Shown: in pieces, positions 1 to 24,217 of the stretch
Layout of the letters: each line of letters begins with the position of its first letter
How positions within the stretch are numbered: position 1 is the first letter of the stretch
Source: an uncultured Bacteroidales bacterium
GTDB taxonomy: Bacteria; Bacteroidota; Bacteroidia; Bacteroidales; UBA932
Assembly (NCBI GenBank): GCA_947307265.1
Contig: CAMZIP010000003.1
Location: forward strand, 1-34,700
DNA length: 34,700 nt
Reading direction: 5' to 3'
Translations under genes and position numbers: made by a program
The notes under the pieces: generated by a model
Databases searched by the model: none
What the model saw: only the letters and a program-made list of their open reading frames with translations
Told to the model about the DNA's origin: nothing

Positions 1-2976
1 ACCAACTACCGCACCAACATCACCGGCAAGATCCTGACGGGCACCACCACCTACGCCATCAGCGTGGACCAGGCTTTTGCCGGCAACACCAATAAGGTTG
101 TGGGTCCCACCTTTGCTAACGTAACGGCTCTCAACACTTACTTCGCCAGTATGGCCGACAACTCCGACCACGGCGACATCAATCCCGAGGAAGTGACCCT
201 GGAGGCCATCGCCGACGGTGAGACCATCGTCCTCCCGGCCATCGCTGACGATGTGGTCATCCGCATCACGGGCACCCTGGCCACCGGTACGCTGAACATC
301 GCTTATGCCGCTTCCGGTGACAAGCCCGCTAACCTGTCTCTCTTTGTCGCCCAGCTCGAAAAGCTGGTTGCCAACATCACTTCCACGCACTTCACGCTCC
401 TGTCCGGCAGCCACATCACCGACCAGGCCGATGTTCACACCAACACCACTACCTTCGTGATCCAGAAGGGCGCCAAGGTGGGCACTGTGAAGATCCTTCA
501 GGGTAATGCCAATATCGCCGGTGAGGTTGCCAAGGTAGACATTCCCGCCGGTGCCAGCGCCGATGGCGATGGCGCTCCCGTCCAGGTATTCCTGACCAAG
601 GAATCTGCCGTTGAGAAGATAGTCCTTAACTCCAAGACCGACGTCGTAGTCGAGCAGCCTAAGGACCATATCGATGTCGAAGCAACTGAGAAGAAGGTTG
701 CCGTCTATGTCAATGATGGCGCTGCTAACTCTACCGCTACCGCCCAGAACGGCGGCGTGATCTACGTTGAGGCCTCCGTGCCTTGCACCGTGACCGCCGA
801 TGGCACCTCCGAGGCCTCCTCCACCGTCATCATCGAGCCTAGTGCTGCAGGATCTGCAGTTGTCGCCTCCAATGGCGGCTCCATTGACCTCACCGCCAAC
901 GGTAACTGCGCAGTGGTTTCTGAAGGTTCTTCAACCGATCCGACCACCAGCGAAACGACTAATTCCACAGTGACGATTTCCGATGTTGCCACTGACGAAA
1001 TTACTGGTAACCCCACTGTAGAGATTGTCGCATCTACCAGCGGTGCCGGACAGATTATTGCAGAGACCGGATCAGCTGAGGCTGCTGCATTGATGACCGA
1101 TGTCGCCAAAATCGGTGATGTAAAATATGCCTCACTTGCAGCTGCTTTCGATGCTGCGCATACGATTGGTGGCAATGTAACCATCACGATGATCAACAAT
1201 GTGCGATTCTCATTTGAGGTGGAAGGAAGCAAGAACTATTACGTAAACGTTGCTGACGGTGAGGACTTCACCTTGAACCTGAATGGATTCGACGTCATTA
1301 GCGCCAACGCTGACAGCAAGGCCAACTGCCTGATTGAGAATAGAGGAAAACTCACTATAACCGATTCTGCCACAAGCAAAGGCTCTCTGCAGTATGGTGC
1401 ATCGGCGGCCTGGGTTTACGATCCCTCTATGGGAAACAACTACAACGGCAGCTACGTGAGCAACGTTATCACCAATAAAGGAACGGGAGAAGTTGTCCTT
1501 GAGAATTGTGTCATCAAGCAGCTCTCCTCTGGTTCAGCCGCATACATCGTGGATAACTTCGAAAATTCGAAGCTTACTATCAACAGTGGTACTTTCGATG
1601 CTACCAAGACGGCTTTTCGTCTGTTCTATGGCAATGTCCGCGTAACCATCAATGGTGGCACCATCAACGCTGGACGTCATAATGTTGGCGTGTTCTCCGG
1701 CGCAACCACCACCAGCCGTCTTGAGATTTACGGCGGCACCTTCAACAATACGATGGCCCAGAATGATAACACTGCCCTTGATATCTGGGGTGAAACTGAA
1801 GCAACGAAAACAGCCAAAACCAGTGTCAAGATTGCCGGAGGCGCATTCAATGCTCCTGTTGTTATCGAGGATTATTATCCTGGATACAATGTGGAAATCC
1901 TTGGCGGCACCTTCAAGTCAATCCGGTCTGTCAACACGCCCGAAATAGCTGCCCTTAAGTATCCCAAGTGCGTAAAGGGTGGCACGTTTGAGGTTAATCC
2001 GAAAAATGGCCAGGAAGACTATGTGGATATCTGGTGTATGGTTGAACCTGCTAACGGTGGGTATAGAGTAGTTCCTGCTCCCAGTTGGGACGAATATGCA
2101 GCCTCCGACAGCGAGTATGCTCCCTGCGTGGATGAAGGGAACAAGCGGGTAACCATCAGCACTGCTGCCCAGCTTGCGAAATTCGCCAAGACGGTCAACG
2201 AGGCTCCTCATAACAGGTACGAAGGTTATACTGTGGAACTGGCTGCCGACATTGATCTTGACCCTTATCTTTGGGTGCCTATCGGTATTCCTGACTACAC
2301 CAACAATTTCAAGGGCACGTTCGATGGGAAAGGCCATAAGATTTCAAATCTGAAAGTTTGGCACAACGAAAAAGCTGGGTTCTTTGGCGCTCTTCACGGA
2401 GCTACTATCAAGAATCTTGTTATTGACGGATTCGTGCTCAGAAGTAACCACTATGCCGGAGCCATTGTAGCTTGGGGAGAAAGTTCTGCGATTAAGAATG
2501 TTATCGACAACTGCACTGCAAAGAACGGTACAGTCACATCCGCGCCGGAGTGGGTTGATGGTTTCGACAACGGTGACAAAGCCGGTGGTATCGCCGGTTT
2601 CTACTATTCCGGAACGCTAACGAATAATACTGTTGATAATGTAACCGTCCGTGCTTATCGTGACCTTGGCGGATTAGCCGGGTGCGTTCAGGATAACGCT
2701 TCGATTGTGACAGGCAATGCCGTTAAAGACGTACGATGCAAGCAGGACGGCAGAAATGCCTATAAATCCAGCGTTGACACCTATGGAGAGTTGATTGGCA
2801 GACGTATAGGTAGTTTTACCGAAAGTGATAACACACTTACAAACTGCGAGGCTTCTCCCGTAACGGCAGAAGAATCAATAGCCGTATACCCCTACTATAA
2901 CTATACGGTGTATACGGTGATTGCTGTCGGTCCCATCTCTGTCGATCCGATTAACGACGATGTTGAAGATTTATAA
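1..2976 (+). CDS. Surface lipoprotein-like protein, 5'-truncated by the window: end of a fimbrillin-like/DUF6562-like domain, conserved stalk, beta-helix-like region and C-terminal GLUG-like repeats
   Basis: Frame is open from base 1 (TNYRTNITGKILTGTTTYAISVDQ...), matching the NYRTNI.G.LLTG motif at the end of the N-terminal domain of the downstream paralogs. The GTG at 64 is not the true start. The C-terminus contains FKGTFDGKGHKISNLKV...AGFFGALHGATIKNLVI (GLUG-like). Confidence 0.88.
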   Translation, partial: TNYRTNITGKILTGTTTYAISVDQAFAGNTNKVVGPTFANVTALNTYFASMADNSDHGDINPEEVTLEAIADGETIVLPAIADDVVIRITGTLATGTLNIAYAASGDKPANLSLFVAQLEKLVANITSTHFTLLSGSHITDQADVHTNTTTFVIQKGAKVGTVKILQGNANIAGEVAKVDIPAGASADGDGAPVQVFLTKESAVEKIVLNSKTDVVVEQPKDHIDVEATEKKVAVYVNDGAANSTATAQNGGVIYVEASVPCTVTADGTSEASSTVIIEPSAAGSAVVASNGGSIDLTANGNCAVVSEGSSTDPTTSETTNSTVTISDVATDEITGNPTVEIVASTSGAGQIIAETGSAEAAALMTDVAKIGDVKYASLAAAFDAAHTIGGNVTITMINNVRFSFEVEGSKNYYVNVADGEDFTLNLNGFDVISANADSKANCLIENRGKLTITDSATSKGSLQYGASAAWVYDPSMGNNYNGSYVSNVITNKGTGEVVLENCVIKQLSSGSAAYIVDNFENSKLTINSGTFDATKTAFRLFYGNVRVTINGGTINAGRHNVGVFSGATTTSRLEIYGGTFNNTMAQNDNTALDIWGETEATKTAKTSVKIAGGAFNAPVVIEDYYPGYNVEILGGTFKSIRSVNTPEIAALKYPKCVKGGTFEVNPKNGQEDYVDIWCMVEPANGGYRVVPAPSWDEYAASDSEYAPCVDEGNKRVTISTAAQLAKFAKTVNEAPHNRYEGYTVELAADIDLDPYLWVPIGIPDYTNNFKGTFDGKGHKISNLKVWHNEKAGFFGALHGATIKNLVIDGFVLRSNHYAGAIVAWGESSAIKNVIDNCTAKNGTVTSAPEWVDGFDNGDKAGGIAGFYYSGTLTNNTVDNVTVRAYRDLGGLAGCVQDNASIVTGNAVKDVRCKQDGRNAYKSSVDTYGELIGRRIGSFTESDNTLTNCEASPVTAEESIAVYPYYNYTVYTVIAVGPISVDPINDDVEDL
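739..768 (+). repeat. 30-nt invariant coding block, copy 1 (stalk/C-terminus junction)
   Basis: accgcccagaacggcggcgtgatctacgtt, identical at 4606-4635 and 8302-8331. Confidence 0.85.
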
Positions 2977-2982
2977 ACCGTA

Positions 2983-3021
2983 TTTTACCCCCGGGCGGCT
3001 GACCCTGCCCGTGGGTGCCAG
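2983..3021 (+). repeat. Intergenic hairpin repeat, copy 1
   Basis: ttttacccccgggcggctgaccctgcccgtgggtgccag. Stem 2987-2996 ACCCCCGGGC pairs with 3007-3016 GCCCGTGGGT with one mismatch; 10-nt loop. One substitution relative to copies 2 and 3. Confidence 0.88.
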
Positions 3022-3057
3022 ATAATGAACAACAAATTATTAACTAATTACAACTTT

Positions 3058-6000
3058 ATGAAAAAAGTCCTTTTATTTCTCGCAGCTGCTGCAATGCTGG
3101 CAGTCTCCTGCGCTAAAGATCCTCAGGGTCTGATCGGCGATCAGACTAAGGTGACCTTCACTGTGGATGCTTCACAGGTTGCAACGCGTGCCGTAACCGG
3201 TACCCACGGCACCGCCACCCGTCTGATGGTGGGCGTGTACATCAAAAGCGGCACCACCTACAACTACATCCAGGCAATCTCCCAGAGCAATACGGTCAGC
3301 GAATGGCCTACCGTCGTTTCCCTGGACCTTGCTAAGAACGAGACTTACAAGATTGTCTTCTGGGCCGATGAAGGCACCAATGCCTATACCATCAACTGGA
3401 CCAACGGTACCGTGGCCGAAACTGCCACCACTATCGGCGGCAACGCAACCAACCGCGACGCATACTACAAGATGGTAGAGATTACGACCAATGGCGCCAA
3501 CGGCGGTGCAATCACTCTGACCCGTCCTCTGGCTCAGGTGAACGTAGGTACCAACGACCTTGCAGCCTACAAGGCAGCTGCCGTATATGACGGCAACATC
3601 GAGACTCAGGTAGTTGTCAGCGGCGTAGTCCCCGGTATGAACCTCCTCACCGGAGAGGCATCTACGGGCGAACCCGTCGATCTGACCTTCAGCTACGCTG
3701 ACAATCTGGACGCTACCCTGGTTTCGGGCGGCAACGATTATGGTTACCTCGGAATGAACTTCGTGCTTTGCCCGGGTGACGCTACCCTTACCGCCGGCAT
3801 CTCCATCCGCAAACACGGAGCAACAGAGAACATCAATACCTTCCAGGTATCAAACATGCCCGTCAAGACCAATTACCGCACCAACGTTGTGGGTAAGCTC
3901 CTCACCGGCATCGTGGAATACACCGTCGACGTTGACACCGACTTCAACAGCGATCTCGAAAAGCAGGTTGGTCCGACCTTCGAGAGCGTGACTGCCCTCA
4001 ACGCCTACTTCGCCACGATGGCCGACAACTCCGACCACGGCGATATTGAGCCTGAGGTAGTTACCCTTACCACCATCGCAGACGACGATGCAATCGTCCT
4101 CCCTGCCATCTCCGGCAGCGTGGTCATCCGCATCCCGGCCGTCCTTGAGACCGGTACTCTCTCCATCGGCTATGCCGCCTCCGGCGACAAGCCCGCGAAC
4201 GTCTCCCTATTTGTGAGGAAGCTCGAGATTCTGCAGGCCACCGTACCCGCATCCCACTTCGAGCTCCTGAGCGGCAGTTTTGTTACCAACAAGGCGATAG
4301 TGTCAACCAACACCACAACCTTCGTTATCCAGAACGGCGCCAGGGTTGGAACCGCCGAGATCCAGAAGGGCAACGCTACCATCGCAGGTACCGTAGCTAC
4401 GGTAACCGTCCCGACAGGCGCCAAGGCCGATGATGACAACAATCCCGTCTATGTCTTCCTGGAGAAGGAATCGGCCGTGGACCAGATTGTCCTGCAAGCC
4501 AAGACCGACGTTGTGGTAGAGCAGCCCAAGGATCAGATAGACGTTGAAGCTACCGAAAAGAAGGTCGCCGTCTATGTCAATGAGGGCGCCGACAACTCAA
4601 CGGCAACCGCCCAGAACGGCGGCGTGATCTACGTTGAGGCCAACGTGCCTTGCACCGTGACCGCTGATGGCACCTCCACCGCTGAAGAAGGCAATGTCTC
4701 TTCGACTGTCATCATCAAAGAAACTGCTACCGGTTCAGCTGTCGTTGCCACCAACGGTGCTTCGGTTGATCTTAAGGCAAATGGCGACTGCACGGCATCT
4801 GCCGAAGGAACCGCTGAAGGTCAGGGAAGCGCTACCGCTACTCCTTCCACTATCACTATTACTGCAGCAGAAGAGGGTGTTGAGGTTAACACCAGCACGA
4901 ATGATAATGGCGTTATCAATAATACTTCAGGAAAAGATGTGGTTGTTACGTATGCCGCAAAGATAGGCGATACAACTTACGAAACTCTTCAGGAGGCTTT
5001 TGCTGCTGTCCCGGATGATGTAGAAACAACTATCGTTCTCCAGAATCGTTATGTCATCATAGGCAACGACGGTATCGCTATCAGCTCCAAGAAAAACATT
5101 ATCCTCGACCTCAATGGCTGGCTTCTTAGCAACGCCGTGAACGAGAACAGGGCTTCCCAGATATTTAATATCCAAGGTGGTTCGCTCACTATTCGTGACT
5201 CCAAGGGCAATGGTGAGATCTTCAATGACGTCCAGAAGGGCACCCAGCCCGGTGAATGGTGGTCAACCCCTCAGTATAACTATGCCACTAACGTAATCAA
5301 GAATAGTGGTACCTTTATTCTCGAAAGCGGTACTGTTCGGCAGACTGCATCTGGTTCAATTTGCTATGCCGTGGATAATAATTCCACCAGTTATGACACC
5401 GAAACAATCCTTAAAGGTGGTGTGATGACTTCTAACCGAACCACCATGCGTATGTTCTGTAATAGTGAAGCTAAAGAGAATAAACTGACTATTCCTGAGA
5501 ATTCCACAGCGCTGCTGGAGGGTAACAAGACCTCCCTTTGGATCCAGCTTCCAGGCTCGAATTCAGCTTCTATGAAACGAGCTACGCTCAATATCCAGGG
5601 TGGTACCCTAAAGGGTAATACCTATGCGTTCTATGATTATTCCTACGGCGATGGCTGGGATAATGTGAACTATGCTATTACCGGAGGCAATTTCATCGGA
5701 GAAATTGATTCTGCGAAACCCAACGCTAAGTTCATTAAAGGCGGTACCTTCTCTCAGGATCCTCAAAACTATGTTGCTGATGGCTATGTGTCTTACTTTG
5801 ACGATGCAGCACAAGTTTGGAAGATCAAGTTAGAAGATGTCGCCCAGGTCGGGGATGTCGTATACACCAGTCTTGTTGACGCTTTTGAGGCTGCACAGGC
5901 AGGCGATGAAGTTAAGATGGTGAAGAATATGTACATTGAGGCAACAGTTCCGGCACCGTATGGCAATAAGTGCGGCATCAAACAGGAAGGAGAGATTCTC

Positions 6001-6582
6001 AATGGTCAAAACTACAACCTTTATTTAACAACTGGAGGAGACCAATATACCATCATGACATCCGGCGGCACTATCAAGAACCTTACGATAGCTTCTGGGT
6101 TCCGCGCAATCTTGCTTATGTATCCTCAAACAGATGTCTATATTGATAATGTAACCAGTGGCCCCAATGTGTGTTATGCTATTAATACCGCTGAGCAGGG
6201 GAACCCTGACGCCCGGATTATTGCGACAAATTCGACCTTCCTTGGTTGGTGCAGTTTCTCTTTGATTGCTTCTGCATCTTTCACAAATTGCAAGTTTGGA
6301 CAGGGCACGTATTATACAAATACCTGGGGCCGTTTTATTAGGCCTTACGTTACCACAACCTTTACGAATTGTGAGTTTGGATATAACTGCGCAGAAGGCG
6401 ATAAGTATTATTTGGATCTGAGTGCATTGCAGGCTGGCCAAACAATCAAGATGATTAACTGCAAGGTCGGTGATACTTTCATTACTGCAGACAATGTAGC
6501 TGAGTTACTTGACGGTTGGGATGAACCCAATAACAATTATTCGTTCGATAAATCCATCTTCGAAATCATTAAGTTCGAATAA
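3058..6582 (+). CDS. Surface lipoprotein, DUF6562/fimbrillin-like N-terminus, conserved stalk, two beta-helix-like modules
   Basis: MKKVLLFLAAAAMLAVSC lipobox. Motifs LAKNETYKIVFWA, RPLAQVNVGTNDLAAY, NMPVKTNYRTNVVGKLLTG. I prefer the ATG at 3058 over the ORF-track ATG at 3025 because it opens the signal peptide directly. Confidence 0.88.
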   Translation: MKKVLLFLAAAAMLAVSCAKDPQGLIGDQTKVTFTVDASQVATRAVTGTHGTATRLMVGVYIKSGTTYNYIQAISQSNTVSEWPTVVSLDLAKNETYKIVFWADEGTNAYTINWTNGTVAETATTIGGNATNRDAYYKMVEITTNGANGGAITLTRPLAQVNVGTNDLAAYKAAAVYDGNIETQVVVSGVVPGMNLLTGEASTGEPVDLTFSYADNLDATLVSGGNDYGYLGMNFVLCPGDATLTAGISIRKHGATENINTFQVSNMPVKTNYRTNVVGKLLTGIVEYTVDVDTDFNSDLEKQVGPTFESVTALNAYFATMADNSDHGDIEPEVVTLTTIADDDAIVLPAISGSVVIRIPAVLETGTLSIGYAASGDKPANVSLFVRKLEILQATVPASHFELLSGSFVTNKAIVSTNTTTFVIQNGARVGTAEIQKGNATIAGTVATVTVPTGAKADDDNNPVYVFLEKESAVDQIVLQAKTDVVVEQPKDQIDVEATEKKVAVYVNEGADNSTATAQNGGVIYVEANVPCTVTADGTSTAEEGNVSSTVIIKETATGSAVVATNGASVDLKANGDCTASAEGTAEGQGSATATPSTITITAAEEGVEVNTSTNDNGVINNTSGKDVVVTYAAKIGDTTYETLQEAFAAVPDDVETTIVLQNRYVIIGNDGIAISSKKNIILDLNGWLLSNAVNENRASQIFNIQGGSLTIRDSKGNGEIFNDVQKGTQPGEWWSTPQYNYATNVIKNSGTFILESGTVRQTASGSICYAVDNNSTSYDTETILKGGVMTSNRTTMRMFCNSEAKENKLTIPENSTALLEGNKTSLWIQLPGSNSASMKRATLNIQGGTLKGNTYAFYDYSYGDGWDNVNYAITGGNFIGEIDSAKPNAKFIKGGTFSQDPQNYVADGYVSYFDDAAQVWKIKLEDVAQVGDVVYTSLVDAFEAAQAGDEVKMVKNMYIEATVPAPYGNKCGIKQEGEILNGQNYNLYLTTGGDQYTIMTSGGTIKNLTIASGFRAILLMYPQTDVYIDNVTSGPNVCYAINTAEQGNPDARIIATNSTFLGWCSFSLIASASFTNCKFGQGTYYTNTWGRFIRPYVTTTFTNCEFGYNCAEGDKYYLDLSALQAGQTIKMINCKVGDTFITADNVAELLDGWDEPNNNYSFDKSIFEIIKFE
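4606..4635 (+). repeat. 30-nt invariant coding block, copy 2
   Basis: Identical to 739-768 and 8302-8331. Confidence 0.85.
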
Positions 6583-6591
6583 TTAACCCAT

Positions 6592-6630
6592 TTTTACCCC
6601 CGGGCGGCTGACCCTGCCCGAGGGTGCCAG
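6592..6630 (+). repeat. Intergenic hairpin repeat, copy 2
   Basis: ttttacccccgggcggctgaccctgcccgagggtgccag. Stem 6596-6605 with 6616-6625. The 39 nt are identical to copy 3. Confidence 0.9.
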
Positions 6631-6666
6631 ATAATGAACAATATATTATTATTTAATCACAGCACT

Positions 6667-9588
6667 ATGAAAAAAATCCTTTCATTTCTCGTAGCTGCAG
6701 CGGCGCTTCTGACAGTGTCCTGCAACAACGATGCGGATGTGATTGACGTAGAGAACGGCCCTCTGGCCAGCATCTCTTTCACCGTCAACTCCGCTGAAAT
6801 TATGACTAAGGCAGACCCGGGCTACGGCCAGGCTACTGCTATCAATGAACTGCTCGTCCAGGTATTCAACAAGGTCGGCGACGACTTCGTGAAACTGGAG
6901 GCACCGGACGTGACCATCACTCCGCTCAACAGCACTCCCGCTTCCTGGACAGTGGATATGAAACTGGCCAAGAACGAGACCTATAAGATCGCATTCTGGG
7001 CACAGAAGTCGGAAACCGGTATCTACGGCACCTCGGACCTGAGCGCCGTTACGGTGGACTACAGCAAGATTGCCATCAACAACGACGATGCCGACGCATT
7101 CTGCGCTGCACGCCTCGTTACCGTGACCGGTTCCCTGTCCCAGACGGTCTATCTGTATCGTCCTCTGGCACAGATCAACATCGGTACCAACGACCTTGCA
7201 GCATACGAGAAGAGTGTTCCCACAGCCAAGAAGAACCTCACCGCAACCATCACTCTCCCTGTCGAGACGCCCAATAAGCTTAACGTTATCGGCGGCACCG
7301 AGAGCGAAGGCGTAGTGAAGTCTGCTGTCACCGGCACCACCACCGAGGAGGTCGTCTTCACTACGGCTCCCTCCTATGTGATGTCCGACCAGACCCTCAC
7401 TTCCTCCAACGTGGACTACAGCTATCTCACGATGCTTTACGTTCTCGCAGCTCCCGGCAAGGAGACAATGACCTTCAAGGCAAAGCTCAACAACGGTACT
7501 ACCGACGTTAGCGACCTCACGGTCTCCAATATGCCCTATCAGGCCAACTACCGTACGAACATCGTCGGTCAGCTCCTCACGGGCAGCGTCCAGTACCTCG
7601 TAGAGATCGAGGAAGGCTTCTATGCAGATTACGAGAAGATCGTATCTCCGACCTTTGCAACTCTTGCTGAGATGAACGATTATCTGGCAATCCTTCAGGA
7701 CGGTACTCCGGAAGGTGACAACGGTGACATCAATCCCGAGCAGGTGACTCTCACCGCTCTTGGTGATGTGACCGGTACACCCCAGATCGTACTGCCCAAG
7801 ATCAACGGCGGCGTGGATATCCGCCTTGCCTTCGACTATGACGGCACCGTCGAGATGGTCTATGCAGATCCTGCAGATGGAGCCAAGAAGCCTGCCAACA
7901 TCTTCTTCTATGCACAGAAGCTCAAAACTCTTGTAGCTACCGTTCCTCAGTCCCACTTCGAGCTTCTGAGCGGCAGCATCGTGACCAACAAGGCCATCGT
8001 CGCAACCAACACCAATACCTTCGTTATCCAGAACGGAGCAAGGGTCGGCACCGCCGAGATTCAGAAGGGTAACGCATCCATCGCAGGTACCGTAACCACG
8101 GTCTCCGTGCCTACCGGCGCAACGGCAGACGGTACGAATGCCGTCCAGGTGTTCTTGGAGAAGGTTTCTTCCGTTGACCAGATAGTCCTCAACGCTAAGA
8201 CCGATGTGGTAGTCGAGCAGCCTAAGGACCAGATCGAGGTGGAAGCTACCGAGCGTAAGGTCGCCGTCTATGTCAATGAGGGCGCTGACAACTCTTCGGC
8301 AACCGCCCAGAACGGCGGCGTGATCTACGTTAAGGCAACTGTGCCTTGCACCGTGACCGCAGACGGCACCTCCGAGGCAGAAGACGGCTCCGCAGTAGCT
8401 TCTACCGTGATTATCGAACCCGGCGCAGACGGCTCTGCGGTTGTCGCAGAGAATGGTGGTTCCATTGTCCTGACTGCAAATGACAATTGCGCGGTCGTAT
8501 CTCAAGGCGTTTCCGATGATCCGACACCAGTGCCGTCCAATGTCACCGTAACCTCGGCTACTTCTCCCGTTTCTGCAACCACTTCGGATGAGGGTACGGT
8601 CACCACAACTTCTTCTTCACAAGATAATGTGACTGTCGTTGAAGATGGCGTTGCTCTTATCGGTGCAGTGGTTTATCAAACACTTACGGCTGCCTTTGCC
8701 GCTGCAGTTCCTTCGGATGTCGTCAAGATTCTCAAGGATTACAATGCTTCAAACGAACCTATGTCTGCCGGAACCCGTCAGTTCGTTATCAATAAGAGTA
8801 TTACTATTGATGGCCAGGGTCATACCGTTCAGACGAAAAACAGAGGTTTCGGTGTTGGTAATGTAAATAATAATCTGTCCTCCAATATTGATGTTACTTT
8901 CAAGGATATTACTATTTTGAATCCGACTAATGGTGGTCGTTGCATTGATACCCGTGGCAAGATCGGAGTATTGACCCTTGATAATGTCGTCCTTTCGACT
9001 CAGGGCGCTACAGGTCAGTATACGCAACCTTTAACTATAGGCGGTAACCAGTCTGACATTGCTTCAATCAATATCAATAACAGTACGATACAGACGAATG
9101 AGGATGCAACTGCATATTATGCGATTATCACATTCAACCCTGTTAATATGACTATTTCCAATAGTACTATTAAAGGATGGGCTTGCATTTATGCGAAGGG
9201 ACCCGACAGTTCTGCCGGTTCCGCCGGTTCTACCTTCACGGTCACATCCAACAGTAATTTAGTATCCTACAATTGCTACTCTGGCGTTTCTAACGCTTTC
9301 TCAGCCGTAGAGATAGAGGATAGCAACGTTACTGTTGACATAACAGACAGCAATATTGCCATCCATAATTCAGGGGATCAAATCCAGTCTATCTTTGGAT
9401 TCCCTGATTTTTCCATCACCGGTTGCAATCTCAGCTTGATCGGCAATAACATTGACTTTGACAATACAGGATCAGGCAGTTGTGCCCTTATAGTAAATCA
9501 GGGGAGTAACACTTTAGTCTACTCCGATAATACCGGACTGATTGTTGGCAGCGGCGCATCTGTTATCGATAATGGTGACGAATTTTAA
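6667..9588 (+). CDS. Surface lipoprotein, DUF6562/fimbrillin-like N-terminus, conserved stalk, beta-helix-like C-terminus
   Basis: MKKILSFLVAAAALLTVSC lipobox. Same N-terminal and stalk motifs (DVVVEQPKDQIEVEATERKVAVYVNEGADNSSATAQNGGVIYV). ATG at 6667 preferred over 6634. Confidence 0.88.
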   Translation: MKKILSFLVAAAALLTVSCNNDADVIDVENGPLASISFTVNSAEIMTKADPGYGQATAINELLVQVFNKVGDDFVKLEAPDVTITPLNSTPASWTVDMKLAKNETYKIAFWAQKSETGIYGTSDLSAVTVDYSKIAINNDDADAFCAARLVTVTGSLSQTVYLYRPLAQINIGTNDLAAYEKSVPTAKKNLTATITLPVETPNKLNVIGGTESEGVVKSAVTGTTTEEVVFTTAPSYVMSDQTLTSSNVDYSYLTMLYVLAAPGKETMTFKAKLNNGTTDVSDLTVSNMPYQANYRTNIVGQLLTGSVQYLVEIEEGFYADYEKIVSPTFATLAEMNDYLAILQDGTPEGDNGDINPEQVTLTALGDVTGTPQIVLPKINGGVDIRLAFDYDGTVEMVYADPADGAKKPANIFFYAQKLKTLVATVPQSHFELLSGSIVTNKAIVATNTNTFVIQNGARVGTAEIQKGNASIAGTVTTVSVPTGATADGTNAVQVFLEKVSSVDQIVLNAKTDVVVEQPKDQIEVEATERKVAVYVNEGADNSSATAQNGGVIYVKATVPCTVTADGTSEAEDGSAVASTVIIEPGADGSAVVAENGGSIVLTANDNCAVVSQGVSDDPTPVPSNVTVTSATSPVSATTSDEGTVTTTSSSQDNVTVVEDGVALIGAVVYQTLTAAFAAAVPSDVVKILKDYNASNEPMSAGTRQFVINKSITIDGQGHTVQTKNRGFGVGNVNNNLSSNIDVTFKDITILNPTNGGRCIDTRGKIGVLTLDNVVLSTQGATGQYTQPLTIGGNQSDIASININNSTIQTNEDATAYYAIITFNPVNMTISNSTIKGWACIYAKGPDSSAGSAGSTFTVTSNSNLVSYNCYSGVSNAFSAVEIEDSNVTVDITDSNIAIHNSGDQIQSIFGFPDFSITGCNLSLIGNNIDFDNTGSGSCALIVNQGSNTLVYSDNTGLIVGSGASVIDNGDEF
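8302..8331 (+). repeat. 30-nt invariant coding block, copy 3
   Basis: Identical to 739-768 and 4606-4635. Confidence 0.85.
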
Positions 9589-9594
9589 ACCATA

Positions 9595-9633
9595 TTTTAC
9601 CCCCGGGCGGCTGACCCTGCCCGAGGGTGCCAG
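9595..9633 (+). repeat. Intergenic hairpin repeat, copy 3
   Basis: Identical 39 nt to copy 2; stem 9599-9608 with 9619-9628. Confidence 0.9.
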
Positions 9634-9673
9634 TAAATAGTAATCAGATATAATTAATTAAAACTAAACAAAC

Positions 9674-10621
9674 ATGAAAAAAGTATTCTGCCTGATGGCT
9701 GCAATTGCAGCCCTGGTCACGGCCGTTTCCTGCAACAAGGATCTTGAGAATGTCGCAGGCGACGAGTATGTGACCGTAACTTACAACGTGTCCACCGGTA
9801 GCGCAACCAAGGTTTCCTACGGCAACGGCACCCTTGCCACCGACCTTACGGTACAGGTATTCCGCAAGGACCCGGTCTCGGCGACCGACAGTACCTGGAC
9901 ACTCACTTCCCCTGCCATCACCAAGACCAAGCTCAACACCTCTCCTGAGAGCTGGACAGTGACCATCAAGCTGGCTAAGAGTTACACTTATCGCGTTGGT
10001 TTCTGGGCCCAGAGCCCCAGCGTCCCGGCAGGCGCCTTCACCATCACGGACCTTAGCACCGTGGCAGTGGACTACTCCAAGTTTGTCATCAACAATGACA
10101 GCCTGGACGTCTTCTGCAACTATGCAGAGATTGCCAATATGAGCGGAACCCTGGCACAGGACGTCGAACTTACACGTCCCCTGTCCCAGATCAACCTCAT
10201 CGCCACCGACTATTCCGACTACTCCAGTTCGGTCCCCTCGGGATCGACTTCTGCCGTCAAGGCGGCTGTCCGTATCACAGGTATTCCCGATACGCTCAAT
10301 GTCATCACCAAAGCCACCAGGGGCAATGCTACGATGGATCTGGCGGCGGCACCCGTGGTCGGCGACGTGTTCGAATCGACTACCAACTACTACCTCTCGA
10401 TGGCCTATATCCTCGGCAACCAGGCAGAAGCGGTTGCTGACGCCAATTTCGTGCTCTCCAATGGCACGCAGGCGTCCTTGGCCAACATTTCTGTCTCCAA
10501 TATGCCTTATCGGGCCAACTACAAGACCAATATCATCGGCGCGATGTTCACCGGTGGAGTCACATATCACGTCGTAATCGCACCGGCATTCTCCACGCCC
10601 GCTTACGAACCCACCCTGTAA
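9674..10621 (+). CDS. Short DUF6562/fimbrillin-like lipoprotein without stalk or beta-helix
   Basis: MKKVFCLMAAIAALVTAVSCNKD lipobox; LAKSYTYRVGFWAQ, RPLSQINLIATDYSDY, VSNMPYRANYKTNIIGAMFTGG motifs shared with neighbours. Confidence 0.87.
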   Translation: MKKVFCLMAAIAALVTAVSCNKDLENVAGDEYVTVTYNVSTGSATKVSYGNGTLATDLTVQVFRKDPVSATDSTWTLTSPAITKTKLNTSPESWTVTIKLAKSYTYRVGFWAQSPSVPAGAFTITDLSTVAVDYSKFVINNDSLDVFCNYAEIANMSGTLAQDVELTRPLSQINLIATDYSDYSSSVPSGSTSAVKAAVRITGIPDTLNVITKATRGNATMDLAAAPVVGDVFESTTNYYLSMAYILGNQAEAVADANFVLSNGTQASLANISVSNMPYRANYKTNIIGAMFTGGVTYHVVIAPAFSTPAYEPTL

Positions 10622-10638
10622 AAAAATATCATCTATAT

Positions 10639-11577
10639 ATGAAAAGAGTATTCTATCTCCTGACCTTGGCGGCAGTGCTGGCATTTACGGCAGCCTGCAA
10701 CAAGATTGACACTGTAGAGGAGGAATGCACCCTGAGCTTCAAGATCGAGGCTCCAGATGCATCGGTCGTCAAGTCCATCAGCGACGGTCTCCAGGCCGAC
10801 CATCTGTACTATGTCGTGTTCAAGACCGACGCCGCCGGCACCAAGACCAACGTCGAAGATACCCTGTGCAACGTCACCTTCCCTTACAGCCTTACGCTCA
10901 AGCTGGCCAAGGGTTTCTCCTACAAGGTATTCTTCTTTGCACAGAACACAGCCCTTCAGGCCTATACGGTAACTACCGCCAACGGCTACTCCGCCATCCT
11001 GGAGGCCGACTACAGCAAGATCCTGACAGGCGACGAGGCGGCTGACGCATTCTTCGCCTACAAGGACATCACCGTAAACGGCGCGATCAGCGAGACCGTT
11101 ACCCTGAAGAGGGCGGTAGCACAGATCAACCTTGGAATCAGTGATTACGACATCTTCACGGAAACCGCTCCCAGCCCGCTTTCGAAGGTTATTGTCAGCT
11201 ATAAAGACATTCCCTCGAAGGTTCAGCTGCTCGACGGCAGCGTGATTGCAACTACCGGCACGTCGGCTGCGGTTGCCTTCCCTGAGGCCAACTCCCCGAT
11301 GACCGATCCTTCCGTCCTGGTAGTGGGAACTGACAGCTATAAGTATCTGTCGATGAATTACATCCTGGCGCCCAAACCGTCCACCACGCTGTTTGACGCC
11401 ACCTATGTCTTCAAGGCCGCAAGCGGCTCGGAGATTGCATCCGTAGTCGTTTCCAACGTTCCGGCACAGATGAATCACCGTACCAATATCCTTGGTCAGA
11501 TTCTCACCGGCAGCGCAGTATTCAACATCGTTATCGACGAAACGTTCGACACCCCGGATCATCAGGCTTCGTTCTAA
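10639..11577 (+). CDS. Short DUF6562/fimbrillin-like lipoprotein
   Basis: MKRVFYLLTLAAVLAFTAACNK lipobox; LAKGFSYKVFFFAQ, KRAVAQINLGISDYD, YKYLSMNYILAP, NHRTNILGQILTG. Confidence 0.86.
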   Translation: MKRVFYLLTLAAVLAFTAACNKIDTVEEECTLSFKIEAPDASVVKSISDGLQADHLYYVVFKTDAAGTKTNVEDTLCNVTFPYSLTLKLAKGFSYKVFFFAQNTALQAYTVTTANGYSAILEADYSKILTGDEAADAFFAYKDITVNGAISETVTLKRAVAQINLGISDYDIFTETAPSPLSKVIVSYKDIPSKVQLLDGSVIATTGTSAAVAFPEANSPMTDPSVLVVGTDSYKYLSMNYILAPKPSTTLFDATYVFKAASGSEIASVVVSNVPAQMNHRTNILGQILTGSAVFNIVIDETFDTPDHQASF

Positions 11578-11586
11578 TCCTGCTTT

Positions 11587-12549
11587 ATGAAGAAGTTGTC
11601 CGTCATATCGGCCCTGTCGCTTTTCCTCCTCGCACTTGTCTCGTGCGAGAAATCCGACGTCAGTCTGGATTCGGGGAAGGCGGCGGTCACCGTGAGCTTC
11701 GGTATCGAGGACGCTGCTGTGGTCAAGGCCGGTTTCGGCTCCGGCAGCAGCGCCAGCGTACTGGAGTACCGGGTGTATGTCCTTCGGGGGACTTCCTGGG
11801 ACCTGACCGGCGTGTCAGGCCGCCTGACGGAGGTCACCTATCCCTGTGACATCACCCTGTTCCTGGTGCCCAATATGACGTACCGCATCGCCTGCTTCGC
11901 GCAAAGCCCTCAGGCCGATGCGGCAGCCCTGTATGACCTGGCCGATTTTGACGACATTGCCATCAACTACGATGCCCTGCAGCCCAACAGCGATATGGGA
12001 GACGCCTTCTGCGCCACCCGTCAGTTCGTGCCTGTGGAGACATCCTCTCTGAGCGTTGTCCTGCGCCGCCCGCTGGCCCAGTTCAACGTGTTCACCGGAG
12101 ATATGGCACTCTACAATACTTCTTCAGTTGACAACCCGCTCAAGAGCATCTGTCTCAAATTCTACGATGTTCCCACTAAGATGGGCATCGTGCAGGGGAC
12201 GGCGGACGAAAGCGCCTATGTACCCGTTAGGGTGAAAGACGCCGTGCAGGATTACGAGTTCACGTGCGACGTCCTGACAGGCGAAGTCCACGGCTTTGAG
12301 GGTCAGACGTACGACCATCTGTCGATGAATTACCTGCTGGCATCTCCCCGGAGCGAGATTACCTCTGTAGATCTTACCCTGAGGGCCGCTGACGGCACGG
12401 TTGTCAGCAACGTCGCGGGCATTTCAAATGTCCCCTATCAGGCCAACTACCGCACCAACCTCTACGGTAATCTCATTACGAATGCCGTGAACTTCAACAT
12501 CGACATTGATGCGCAGTTCGACAAGCCCGATCATAACGTCATTCACTGA
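11587..12549 (+). CDS. Short DUF6562/fimbrillin-like lipoprotein
   Basis: MKKLSVISALSLFLLALVSCEKS lipobox; MTYRIACFAQ, RRPLAQFNVFTGDMALY, YDHLSMNYLLA, VPYQANYRTNLYGNLITN. Confidence 0.86.
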   Translation: MKKLSVISALSLFLLALVSCEKSDVSLDSGKAAVTVSFGIEDAAVVKAGFGSGSSASVLEYRVYVLRGTSWDLTGVSGRLTEVTYPCDITLFLVPNMTYRIACFAQSPQADAAALYDLADFDDIAINYDALQPNSDMGDAFCATRQFVPVETSSLSVVLRRPLAQFNVFTGDMALYNTSSVDNPLKSICLKFYDVPTKMGIVQGTADESAYVPVRVKDAVQDYEFTCDVLTGEVHGFEGQTYDHLSMNYLLASPRSEITSVDLTLRAADGTVVSNVAGISNVPYQANYRTNLYGNLITNAVNFNIDIDAQFDKPDHNVIH

Positions 12550-12626: not shown

Positions 12627-13955
12627 TTACCAGCCGGTCGAGAACAGGCAAGGGGAGATGACCAGCGAGAACCAACCCCAGAGAGCGTTCTTGCTGCCGC
12701 TACCCTGCTTCAGTCTGTCCATAGTCTCGGTACCGGACATATACGAAAGGCCTGCCGTAAGGCTTATATCCTTGGTAAAGGTATATGAAGCCTGCAGGTC
12801 GATATCGTGACCGAGAGTCATTCCGAGGTCCTTAAGTTTCGTGGAAACGGCCAGATAATGATAAGATGCACCGAGGCTCAGGCCGTTTACAGGGCTGCAG
12901 GTGATGCCTGCGAAAGCATTCTGCAGACCGGGAGAGAAGCCGTGGACATATGCGCTCTCATAGAAGTAATCCATTATGCCGTAGAACTTTGAACGGGAGC
13001 CATATACAGGTGAAAAGCCCCTGGAGACCTCGTGACGGGGCATTCCGAACTCTCCGCCGTAGATCTCCGGTATATAATCATCACCGCTCAGGAAGTCATA
13101 ACCCAGAACGAAGCCGAACTTGTCTGAAAGATTGACGGTTGCCTTGGCGCTGGCCATCCAGGCGTCGATCTTATATGCACCCATATATTTAGGATCTACG
13201 TCGTAACCCTTCTGCTTATAGTAAGATGCTTCAAAAGTCAGGTACTTGGGATGGAAATTGATATATCCGCCGGCAAGGAACTGATAAACGTTCTTGACCT
13301 GGAGGTATGACGAACCCGGAATGCCGGATTGAAGGCCGATGTTCATAAGCAGCAGCGAGCCGCTGAGGGGAATGCGGGAAGCATCATAATGATACCAGGC
13401 CATCAGCAGGTTCTTGTACGGCTGTGCGCCGCCGTTGTAGTATGTGCCGGAATAGACCATAGAGGCGTTCTGGTTGAAAGCGGCGCCTAAATGAAGTTTA
13501 TGACTGTGTCCTTCGTAGCCTACGCGCAGGATGTCGTGCGAGAGGGCCGCCATTGCAAAGTCATTGGGACCGATGATACGCTCATCGTCGTAGGACAGCG
13601 CAACGCGTCCCAACTGGGCGAAAAGCCCGTGCTTGGAAGTCATCTTGACCCAGCCTTCATACAGGCCGAGATTCAGGTTGTTGGTGGTGCCCCAGACGGC
13701 CTTGTTCTGGATGATGGCGCATATTTCGAGACCCTTGCGCTGATAATCCACGTTAAGACGCGTACGGCCCATTATGAAGTATGAGCGTCCCTCGTTCTCG
13801 ACAGGATCATTGCTTCTCGGCAGGCCGCCGGCGCAATACTCGCCGTGGGACATAAAGTTGAGTCCGATGTTCAGTTGGTTCTTGAGCGAATCGGTTTGCG
13901 CGTGGCCTACAGCGGAAGCCATCAGCAGGGCTACTGCGATGATGATTTTTCTCAT
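12627..13955 (-). CDS. Outer membrane beta-barrel protein, alginate-export/porin-like
   Basis: MRKIIIAVALLMASAVGHAQ signal peptide (start 13955, not 14030); GRVALSYDDERIIGPNDFA and alternating barrel-like strands to an aromatic C-terminal residue (…FSTGW). Confidence 0.75.
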   Translation of the reverse strand: MRKIIIAVALLMASAVGHAQTDSLKNQLNIGLNFMSHGEYCAGGLPRSNDPVENEGRSYFIMGRTRLNVDYQRKGLEICAIIQNKAVWGTTNNLNLGLYEGWVKMTSKHGLFAQLGRVALSYDDERIIGPNDFAMAALSHDILRVGYEGHSHKLHLGAAFNQNASMVYSGTYYNGGAQPYKNLLMAWYHYDASRIPLSGSLLLMNIGLQSGIPGSSYLQVKNVYQFLAGGYINFHPKYLTFEASYYKQKGYDVDPKYMGAYKIDAWMASAKATVNLSDKFGFVLGYDFLSGDDYIPEIYGGEFGMPRHEVSRGFSPVYGSRSKFYGIMDYFYESAYVHGFSPGLQNAFAGITCSPVNGLSLGASYHYLAVSTKLKDLGMTLGHDIDLQASYTFTKDISLTAGLSYMSGTETMDRLKQGSGSKNALWGWFSLVISPCLFSTGW

Positions 13956-13968
13956 AAATCGATAATTC

Positions 13969-14271
13969 TTATTCGAATTCAAAAATGCCGATAAAACCGG
14001 TGAGGGAGAAGACGTTCTTGATATCGTCATTGACTCCGCGCAGCACTACGCGGCTGCCGCCGGCTTTTGCACCCTTGAGGATGCTCAGCAGGATGCGCAG
14101 ACCGCTCGAAGCGATGTACTCCAGACCGTTGCAGTCAATGATGACGTCCTTTCCTTCGGACTGATAGAGCGGCTTGAGGATGTTTTCGACCTCAACTGCA
14201 GCCGCAGTATCCATTTCACCTTCCAGTGTGGCAACATACTTGCCGTCGATTTCTTCTACTTTTGCGTTCAT
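13969..14271 (-). CDS. STAS-domain anti-sigma factor antagonist (SpoIIAA/RsbV-like)
   Basis: VIIDCNGLEYIASSGLRILLSILKGAKAGGSRVVLRGVNDDIKNVFSLTGF: typical STAS signature including the Ser-Ser phosphosite region. Confidence 0.93.
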   Translation of the reverse strand: MNAKVEEIDGKYVATLEGEMDTAAAVEVENILKPLYQSEGKDVIIDCNGLEYIASSGLRILLSILKGAKAGGSRVVLRGVNDDIKNVFSLTGFIGIFEFE

Positions 14272-14276
14272 AGTTA

Positions 14277-16373
14277 TCAGGAATTATATTTTTTTGACAA
14301 AGTAAGGATATTTTTGCCGGCTATTCGTTCATAATTGATCGAATCCATAAGTTCGCGTACCAGCAGTATTCCGAGTCCGCCGATCTGCCTTTCTTCTGCC
14401 GAAAGCGAGGTATCTGCCCTGACCTGGGCCGTGGGGTCGAACGGGATTCCGGAGTCAATAATCTGTACGCGGAAACTATTTCCGTCGGTCATAAGTTTTA
14501 TCTCTATATCGCCTTCTACGCCTTCGGGATAAGCGTAATCGATGACATTGACTACTGCTTCCTCTACTGCCAGGCGTACTTCGCGGGGATATGGCTTCAT
14601 AAATGCGCTCAGGCTGGATACTTCGCTGACGTTGTTCTTGATGACGAGTGTCTTGGTATCGGTGCTCTCGAACACCTTCGGAGTGTAATGGAAGCAGAGC
14701 ATCGTGAGGTCGTCGCTCTGTACGGCATCTCCGATAAAGTCCTGCATTGACTCCTTGACGGTACCTATGATCTGCTCCGGCTTGAGTTTCCGCTCTGAGC
14801 ATCTTGTGAGGACACTTTCAACGCGCTTGAGCCCGAAGAGGCTGCGCTGCGTATCTTTGGCTTCGGTCAGTCCGTCCGTATAGAGGAATACTATGCTGTC
14901 TGCCGCCAGGGTGGTCTCCTGTATTGTGTAGCATACGTCATCAAATACGCCGATCGGCAGATGGGGATTGCATTCCAGGGTACGGAGTCCTTCTTTCTCC
15001 AGGATTATAGGGCAGTCGTGTCCTGCGTCGCAGTAGCGCAGGATACCGGTAGGAAGATCCAGTACACCGACGAACAAGGTGACGAACATATTGTTGTCAT
15101 TGTTCTCGCAGGAAGATTCGTTGATGGTCTGCATTATGCGGGCGGGATTGCTCTCGTATGTAGATGCAGACCGGAATTTGGAGTGCGTTACCGCCATCAG
15201 CAGTGCGGAGGGCGCTCCCTTTCCGCTTACGTCGCCGATGCAGAAGAACAATTTGCCGTCGCGGATAAAATAGTCATACAGGTCGCCGCCCACTTCGCGC
15301 GCAGGCACCAGCAGGCCGCGGATATCGATGTCCTCCTGCTCCAGATGGTGATGCGGCAGCATACTCTGCTGAATCTCGCTGGCTACCTGAAGTTCACCGC
15401 TGATGCGCGCATTCTGCTCGACTGCCGTACGCAACTTTTTCTCGTTTCGCGTATAGCGGTTGATCATAAATGCCAGAATAACCAAACCGGCAAGGATGAA
15501 CAGCATATTCCGCAGACGCATCTTCCGAATCTTGGCAGACATCTCGTCGGTACTGAAAACCTGGACCAGATACCAGTTGGATTCATTGTCCAGCGAGGTC
15601 GTGCTGATGGAATAACCGTGGACCGGAGAAACCTGGACGCCGTTGTACAAGGCTGAGATTACCCGGGCGACAATTTCTGGAGAGGTCCTGTCCTCGGAGG
15701 GCCCTGCAATCAGTTCGCCTTTATCCGTTACCAGCAATCCGAAACAAGAGCGGGAAGGCTGGTGGACATTCAGGGTATCGCCGAGCCACGAAAGGTCGAT
15801 ATCCAGACCGCAGACTGCTGCCAGCCGGTCCTTCTTGTCCATAATGGGGTAGGAGTAGGTGGCCAGTTTTATCGAGTCCGGTCCGTAAAAATAGGGGTCG
15901 GTCCCGTTGGGCTCCAGGGTCTCGACGATGAGTTTGAACTCGTCGTTCTGAGTATAATCGTGGTCCGGGCCCGCAATCTGGCTGACGATTATCTTGTCGC
16001 CCTGCTTGCTGGCGAACGGTTCGTACAGCCGTCCCTTGGACGGAAAATAGTCGGGAACGAATGCCATACATCCTCCCACCACATTTGGATTGTCGTCAAT
16101 CAGGCGGATAAGACCGGGGTAAACGGAATCCGGATCTTCGATGCAGCGCTGGACTTCCCAGAGGTTTTCGGTCATCGTAGCCTCGGTAATGTTCAGCAGA
16201 TGCTCGATCTCGAGGGCCATTGCGTCCAATACCACCCGGCTGCTGGTATGCATTTCCTCTGTCATCATCTTGCTCACACGCTCATATTGAACGATGGAGA
16301 TGATTTCCATCAGCAAGGCGGCAATCATCACAATTCCCACACGGGACATCCAGCTCTTCCTTCTGTTATCCAT
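14277..16373 (-). CDS. Membrane sensor (Cache-like) - SpoIIE/PP2C phosphatase - RsbW-like HATPase fusion
   Basis: N-terminal TM and periplasmic sensor with second TM (ILAGLVILAFMINRY); SpoIIE motifs REVGGDLYDYF, IGDVSGKGAPSALLMA, LYTDGLTEA; C-terminal HATPase boxes AVEEAVVNVIDYAYP, IIDSGIPFDP, GGLGILLVRELMD. Confidence 0.92.
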   Translation of the reverse strand: MDNRRKSWMSRVGIVMIAALLMEIISIVQYERVSKMMTEEMHTSSRVVLDAMALEIEHLLNITEATMTENLWEVQRCIEDPDSVYPGLIRLIDDNPNVVGGCMAFVPDYFPSKGRLYEPFASKQGDKIIVSQIAGPDHDYTQNDEFKLIVETLEPNGTDPYFYGPDSIKLATYSYPIMDKKDRLAAVCGLDIDLSWLGDTLNVHQPSRSCFGLLVTDKGELIAGPSEDRTSPEIVARVISALYNGVQVSPVHGYSISTTSLDNESNWYLVQVFSTDEMSAKIRKMRLRNMLFILAGLVILAFMINRYTRNEKKLRTAVEQNARISGELQVASEIQQSMLPHHHLEQEDIDIRGLLVPAREVGGDLYDYFIRDGKLFFCIGDVSGKGAPSALLMAVTHSKFRSASTYESNPARIMQTINESSCENNDNNMFVTLFVGVLDLPTGILRYCDAGHDCPIILEKEGLRTLECNPHLPIGVFDDVCYTIQETTLAADSIVFLYTDGLTEAKDTQRSLFGLKRVESVLTRCSERKLKPEQIIGTVKESMQDFIGDAVQSDDLTMLCFHYTPKVFESTDTKTLVIKNNVSEVSSLSAFMKPYPREVRLAVEEAVVNVIDYAYPEGVEGDIEIKLMTDGNSFRVQIIDSGIPFDPTAQVRADTSLSAEERQIGGLGILLVRELMDSINYERIAGKNILTLSKKYNS

Positions 16374-23647: not shown

Positions 23648-24217
23648 ATGATTTACCTGGATACGCGCGTTGACGAGATGGACTTGGCCGCTGCTCTTGA
23701 GCAAGTTGGCGATTGGCGGCGCGAGGTGGCACTCCGTTATGTAAAAGATGACGACCGCCGTCTTTCGCTATCGGTCTATATGCTGCTTCAGAACGCCCTG
23801 GAACGCGAATATGGCATTACGGTCCAGCCTGAATTCGATTACGGGCCGCACGGCAAACCGTTCCTGCGCGACTATCCGCATATACATTTCAATCTGAGCC
23901 ACTGCCGCGGCGCTGCGTTGTGCGTGGTGGGCAATGCTCCGGTTGGCTGCGATATCGAGCGGGTAGAGGCAAAAGTGGATATGGAAGTTTGCAGGTATTG
24001 CTGCAATGAAAACGAGGTCGAGGCGATTCTGGGTTCAGACAATCCGCAACTTGCTTTCTTTACGCTCTGGACGCGCAAGGAAGCGTTTCTCAAATACACC
24101 GGCGAAGGCCTGACGAACAACCTTCCGGGCCTGCTTCTTACTCCCGAGGTACTCTCAGTCCGTTTCGAGACCTATACGGCCGAAGACGGCGCGCTGGTCT
24201 ATACCATTTGCCGGTAA
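23648..24217 (+). CDS. 4'-phosphopantetheinyl transferase, Sfp-type
   Basis: YGPHGKPFL, HFNLSHCRGAALCVVGNAPVGCDIERV, FFTLWTRKEAFLKYTGEGL: canonical PPTase motifs; divergent from the NRPS. Confidence 0.95.
   Translation: MIYLDTRVDEMDLAAALEQVGDWRREVALRYVKDDDRRLSLSVYMLLQNALEREYGITVQPEFDYGPHGKPFLRDYPHIHFNLSHCRGAALCVVGNAPVGCDIERVEAKVDMEVCRYCCNENEVEAILGSDNPQLAFFTLWTRKEAFLKYTGEGLTNNLPGLLLTPEVLSVRFETYTAEDGALVYTICR

Follow-up and report, generated by a model that had tools for sequence, protein, structure and literature searches.

A DUF6562 gene array of an uncultured Bacteroidales bacterium as the putative 3' part of a type V pilus-like operon with exchangeable C-terminal displays

The window analysed here is the whole of a 34,700 bp contig (G000:C3, CAMZIP010000003.1) from the draft genome of an uncultured Bacteroidales bacterium (1.44 Mb in 178 contigs). 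Positions 1-12549 hold six co-directional open reading frames (ORFs) on the + strand, here named g1 to g6, that encode paralogous proteins with the DUF6562 domain (PF20200), a Pfam family of unknown function. We suggest that these genes make up the 3' part of a type V pilus-like operon, whose dedicated anchor gene and DUF3575 gene would lie upstream, outside the contig. In brief, the DUF6562 domain very probably has, judged from a structural model, the two-beta-sandwich fold of the pilin superfamily (type V pilins), and the C-terminal displays of the long members have quite probably been exchanged between N-terminal domains (N-domains), as comparison with related loci indicates. The literature searched contained no paper on DUF6562; most subscription papers were outside its scope, and a prior description is possible.

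A preliminary description of the window, made without database searches, had reported six consecutive + strand paralogs sharing a lipobox and/or DUF6562-like motifs. This was borne out by PF20200 matches in g2-g6 (32.9-57 bits, against a curated cut-off of 25), by the homology of g1 and by BLASTP. The features of the array are as follows, with lengths in amino acids (aa).

1-2976, + strand: g1, long, 991 aa seen, with a TNYRTN..G motif at the very start, the stalk at about 109-1101 and the display at about 1102-2973, including a GLUG-like C-terminal stretch (by eye).
3025-6582, + strand: g2, long, 1185 aa, likely start 3058, with the DUF6562 domain at about 3058-3975 (PF20200, E 5e-12), the stalk at about 3976-4956 and a beta-solenoid-like display at about 4957-6579.
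3109-3111, + strand: lipobox cysteine of g2, in the sequence AVSC.
3187-3189, + strand: predicted maturation site of g2, the Arg of ATRAV at Cys+26, placed by comparison with type V pilins.
6634-9588, + strand: g3, long, 984 aa, likely start 6667, with the DUF6562 domain at about 6667-7650 (PF20200, E 6e-8), the stalk at about 7651-8652 and a pectate-lyase-like display at about 8653-9585.
6808-6810, + strand: predicted maturation site of g3, the Lys of MTKAD at Cys+29, placed likewise.
9674-10621, + strand: g4, short, 315 aa, DUF6562 only (PF20200, E 1.4e-14); the protein that was modelled.
9809-9811, + strand: predicted maturation site of g4, Lys46 of ATKV, placed likewise.
10639-11577, + strand: g5, short, 312 aa, DUF6562 only (PF20200, E 9e-9), with a predicted site VKS at residue 45.
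11587-12549, + strand: g6, short, 320 aa, DUF6562 only (PF20200, E 2.7e-15), with a predicted site VKA at residue 47; the last gene of the array.

The intergenic gaps measure only 9-85 bp, and the six genes are therefore probably one operon. Terminator and promoter scans gave nothing usable. The gene after g6 is convergent (12627-14030, minus strand). An N-terminal lipobox cysteine is found in each of g2-g6, and the true starts of g2 and g3 are probably the second Met (3058 and 6667), directly before the signal peptide. As had been noted earlier, the N-terminus of the first gene lies beyond the window: the contig starts inside g1, so that the signal peptide and almost the whole DUF6562 domain are cut off. 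What remains of the domain is its last strands (NYRTN..G), and across these g1 matches the other members. Since the window is the whole contig, upstream copies cannot be read in this assembly.

All-against-all BLASTP comparisons were far above chance, with 48.5% identity over 709 aa between g2 and g3, 46% over 692 aa between g1 and g2, and 26-31% (E 1e-27 to 1e-35) between pairs of short members. In the long proteins the DUF6562 domain, about 305-330 aa in length, is followed by a stalk (about 330 aa) and then by a display, which measures 311-623 aa. The array had been described as having a constant anchor and stalk. This holds for the stalk, which is 65% identical between g1 and g2 and 60-65% identical among all three long members, and less for the supposed anchor: the identity of g2 and g3 is 39% in the DUF6562 domain and rises to 63% in the stalk, which is thus the constant part. 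The DUF6562 domain is a diverging pilin domain rather than a constant anchor. The displays had also been described as unrelated-looking. That of g3 is distinct, with no detectable similarity to the display of g1 or g2 (it has a PF20585 match, E 2.5e-4, under the cut-off of that family), whereas those of g1 and g2 are distantly homologous (26% over 316 aa, E 3e-15). A search of the genus and family for the stalk returned the window's own genome only, plus weak partial matches, and the stalk is thus lineage-specific. A stalk-based search of genome contigs found a relative, UBA1197, which is described below.

The array belongs to no known fimbrillin sequence family: there was no NCBIfam match, and Pfam gave only a match to Mfa2 (PF08842) in g5 that is below threshold (E 0.011). 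An AlphaFold2 model of g4 was built from nine DUF6562-type sequences from the window and UBA1197 (predicted local distance difference test, pLDDT, 74.3; predicted template modelling score, pTM, 0.71). In a Foldseek search of the PDB with this model, the top 17 matches were Bacteroidales fimbrial or putative adhesin structures only (E 4e-9 to 2e-6, probability 1.00), among them 3up6, 3pay, 4qdg, 4rdb, 3sy6 and Mfa2 (5nfi), with Mfa4 (5dhm) just lower at ranks 20 and 22. The first strand of the model spans residues 32-40; Lys46 and a low-confidence loop at 47-51 come after it. Type V pilins are arranged in the same way: they are cleaved in the loop that follows strand 1, and that strand is removed (PMC5789003, PMC7835359).

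In Porphyromonas gingivalis, cleavage after Arg49 (Mfa1), Arg43 (Mfa3) or Arg54 (Mfa4) removes the first strand, and the anchor Mfa2 is left uncut (PMC5789003). By analogy, the Lys or Arg that most array proteins have some 25-30 residues past the lipid cysteine is their predicted cleavage position. We surveyed this position in 142 DUF6562 ORFs from 44 loci, the window included. With classes assigned by pattern (a few are misassigned), a motif [TSV][KR][AVST] at Cys+18 to Cys+34 is present in 32 of 39 short and 44 of 59 long members, compared with means of 4.5 and 5.6 and maxima of 11 and 12 in a shuffle control. A further 3 short and 12 long members have TY[AST] at the same place. In the anchor class, defined by a C-x-HE[YFW]P-like lipobox, the site occurs in 8 of 38 proteins, against 2.8 by chance (maximum 10). 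The lipobox cysteine is present in nearly all DUF6562 relatives.

Of 399 genomes of the family, 57 carry DUF6562, spread over 14 of 26 genera. In the window's own genus it was seen in only 4 of 40 genomes, and among genomes sampled from the order in 23 of 393, across many families; it was absent from all 14 control genomes. At 36 of the 38 loci with upstream sequence, the first DUF6562 gene is preceded by a DUF3575-like gene at a distance of at most 200 bp, usually a few bases off or overlapping. The first DUF6562 gene at those loci encodes an anchor-type protein of about 320-400 aa, and short and long members follow. In relatives the complete operon thus starts with DUF3575 and a lipoprotein anchor that resembles Mfa2/FimB, followed by short DUF6562 subunits and then by at least one long DUF6562 protein. 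The operon head is missing from the window because the contig starts inside g1. It is present in UBA1197 (DBYB01000040.1, about 70% DNA identity), which has a DUF3575 gene (PF12099, E 5e-26), an anchor gene (PF20200, E 1e-70), one short gene and two long genes, A and B, with the same stalk. The anchor gene was not found elsewhere in the assembly of the window's genome; contig C95 carries an orphan DUF3575 gene with no DUF6562 neighbour. We also observed a second fimbria-type locus in this genome, on contig G000:C2 (L100:969-6672, minus strand), consisting of genes for a DUF3575 protein, a TPR protein, a FimA-family (PF06321) protein and a further lipoprotein. The FimA-family protein (L100:1816-2862) has TKS about 27 residues past its cysteine.

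Based on these observations, we propose the following model, to which we give somewhat better than even chances as a whole. The array proteins would each be exported by the lipoprotein route to the outer surface, where a protease would cut after the Lys or Arg in the loop behind the first beta-strand and free the groove for strand exchange. The short members, which end with the pilin domain, would serve as shaft or adaptor units. In the long members the stalk and display replace the free C-terminal end; these proteins would therefore be capping tip adhesins, placed at the end of the fibre with the display as adhesin. Recombination would exchange displays between N-domains, with the conserved stalk as its most plausible route in this lineage, and the displayed repertoire would change as a result. 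The surface fimbria-like repertoire with a swapped displayed part that the preliminary description had envisaged is supported, with the dedicated anchor gene placed outside the window.

It should be noted that several results weigh against this model or parts of it. When nine DUF6562 domains were compared with the PDB by sequence profile, nothing significant was found, which is why the fold search was needed, and the template modelling (TM) scores of the single g4 model to fimbrillins are modest (0.35-0.5), so that the relationship is remote. The full-length g2 model (pLDDT 54) is too weak for classifying stalk or display and had no match in the PDB below 1e-3. The DUF3575 and anchor genes are absent from the window and are predicted for the array from the relatives. 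TY[AST] takes the place of the basic site mostly in genera labelled g7, g11, g21 and g26, where it is found in most members of a genome (L080, L081, L085, L093 and L094); this may reflect a maturation protease with aromatic specificity. Strong matches to the gingipain family (C25) are rare, almost all in other genera and almost never in genomes with DUF6562. The window's own genome has a weak C25 match only (contig C21, E 8e-6). A gingipain-type C25 protease was considered as the maturation enzyme, and its co-occurrence with DUF6562 was unsupportive. Finally, each long protein has its own lipobox and so could act as a free-standing lipoprotein.

This last point leads to the strongest alternative, that the array encodes individual outer-membrane lipoproteins in which DUF6562 is a surface spacer and the long members display adhesin or glycan-binding domains, with no polymerisation. 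It would account for the lipobox on every member with an intact 5' end, and for the long proteins, which cannot have a free C-terminal donor strand beside the pilin domain. In many arrays, moreover, the long genes equal or outnumber the non-anchor short genes, and some displays also occur on non-pilin surface proteins. Such spacers would not, however, explain a Lys or Arg at the pilin position that is conserved in array members much more often than chance predicts and that the anchor subtype mostly lacks, nor an operon with a separate anchor gene and DUF3575, nor the retention in many arrays of non-anchor short members without a display. We regard this alternative as unlikely, though it keeps a sizeable share of our doubt.

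The proposed exchange of displays draws on the relatives. The preliminary description had set swapping against uniform divergence, and across 62 long members N-domain and display similarity are indeed uncoupled, in both directions. Gene B of UBA1197 is, judged by its sequence, a mosaic gene. Its N-domain is nearest to that of g3 (51% identity, vs 35% for g2), with which it is grouped at 90/86 support, and two blocks within it are 73% and 64% identical to g3 where g2 has 35% and 31%. Its display is 85% identical to that of g2 over 248 aa and unlike that of g3. Gene A of UBA1197 is 66.6% identical to g1 through the end of the stalk and has no match beyond. Similarly, N-domains that are 59-61% identical are joined to displays without similarity in L058/L070, in L087/L096 and in two paralogs of L079. 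The pair L061/L062 drops from 96% to 67% identity near residue 420 and ends at 18-27%. Unrelated display families (lamin-tail, Fn3-associated, Big_2 and right-handed beta-helix) occur on the same N-domain.

The reverse pattern, displays 60-73% identical on N-domains at 30-43%, was seen in some pairs, including L081/L085 (N-domain 38%, C-terminal part 60%) and L011/L095 (43% and 62%). For the latter pair, the N-domain that bears the common display in one genome is the sister of a short gene of the other genome (100/98). In L082/L091 the N-domains are 53% identical and the last approximately 190 aa 88-98%. Gene number is likewise not fixed: in the close relatives G099 and G152 the operon head is syntenic, and the upstream region, anchor and short genes align (86% DNA identity over 8.7 kb), whereas the long-gene section is rearranged and differs in gene number and long-gene content. 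G099 has a broken gene; in G152 there is an orphan ORF for a display that lacks both a signal peptide and a pilin domain. In the window itself, nucleotide signs of recent conversion among the stalks are confined to one short block (87-90% identity, exact runs of at most 36 bp), and recombination through the stalk thus stays a suggestion. As a separate observation, a surface protein with repeated Ig-like segments is encoded upstream of the array of G081 (L066:283-3243, + strand). This non-pilin carrier shares its last 449 aa, at 80% identity, with the display of the long DUF6562 gene next to it, one display being found on two different carriers.

Ordinary fast point mutation of the displays under selection, with the apparent swaps going back to ancient paralogy, would fit the N-domain pairs that are less than 40% identical, which are the majority and in which loss of display similarity is expected, and some orthologous pairs whose identity falls gradually towards the C-terminus (L090/L091). 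In gene B of UBA1197 compared with g2, in L081/L085 and in L082/L091, however, the displays are more similar than the N-domains, which excludes faster display evolution as the cause, and the display families are mutually unrelated; this explanation is strongly disfavoured and we consider it very improbable. A reading of the arrays as duplicates largely in decay, with little function today, is, if anything, still less probable: there are frameshifted and orphan pieces in G099 and G152, and contigs often break at arrays, but all six ORFs of the window are open, the lipobox, the site and the NYRTN motif are conserved, and the architecture recurs across many Bacteroidales families.

Returning to the pilus-tip model, the analysis assigns a fold and a likely role to a Pfam family of unknown function, and points to a way in which uncultured gut-type Bacteroidales may diversify their surface. 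According to PMC5789003, it is not established which end of a type V pilin serves as strand donor. Pilin domains with large C-terminal fusions constrain the choice. The change from Lys/Arg to Tyr points to a testable switch of maturation protease. More tentatively, and with chances we put a little under even, DUF6562 operons might form an undescribed branch of type V pili across Bacteroidales, in which tip displays of unrelated folds are swapped as cassettes onto pilin domains, in a combinatorial system, and some genera have replaced the Lys/Arg of the site by Tyr while using a protease with a different specificity.

The rest of the window carries other genes. Near the array (13969-16373, minus strand) is a partner-switching signalling pair, a STAS-domain protein and a fusion of Cache, SpoIIE phosphatase and HATPase domains. 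It is followed by a two-module nonribosomal peptide synthetase that ends in a reductase-type domain (16385-23599, minus strand). An in-frame TAG near 18410, within the second adenylation domain, divides its gene between two ORFs. The frame is otherwise open, and the TAG may be a nonsense mutation, a sequencing error or a read-through site. A phosphopantetheinyl transferase gene (23648-24217, + strand) adjoins it. Further downstream, a penicillin-binding-protein-like gene (26835-29177, minus strand) is divergent from the gene of a 1774-aa alpha-2-macroglobulin-like lipoprotein (29216-34540, + strand), both named by eye from their translations.

Among known systems, the array is most readily compared with the Mfa1 fimbriae of P. 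gingivalis (Mfa1-Mfa5, type V pili). Both have lipoprotein precursors with a two-beta-sandwich fold (in the array, as modelled for g4) and a basic residue after the first strand, and a single gene cluster; a separate uncleaved lipoprotein anchor and a large tip protein, which the Mfa1 fimbriae have, are predicted for the array (PMC5789003, PMC7835359). The array differs in belonging to another sequence family (DUF6562), in an operon headed by DUF3575 and in having no evident gingipain. Its large proteins keep the N-terminal pilin domain and add an exchangeable C-terminal display. The FimA fimbriae (FimA-FimE, PF06321) are also clustered lipoprotein pilins, with the anchor FimB and accessory tip proteins; in contrast to these, the array has no PF06321 match and several long paralogs in one locus. 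As described above, a gene of the FimA family lies near a DUF3575 gene in the genome of the window as well.

The best fold matches of g4 are putative type V pilus proteins of Bacteroides from structural genomics, of which 3up6 has been treated as a tip or fimbrial protein and 3pay and 4qdg as anchor proteins (PMC5789003). These chains are about 10% identical to g4 and, unlike g1-g3, have approximately 300 residues and no long swapped displays. Polymorphic toxin systems have a conserved N-terminal delivery part and C-terminal modules that are exchanged by recombination, with orphan C-terminal pieces alongside, and are analogous in mechanism only; in the array no toxin domain or immunity gene was seen, and the exchanged parts look like adhesive beta-structures. 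By its fold, lipoprotein route, site and operon logic, we judge that the array would work like a type V pilus locus, and that it probably represents a variant of type V pili with exchangeable C-terminal displays.

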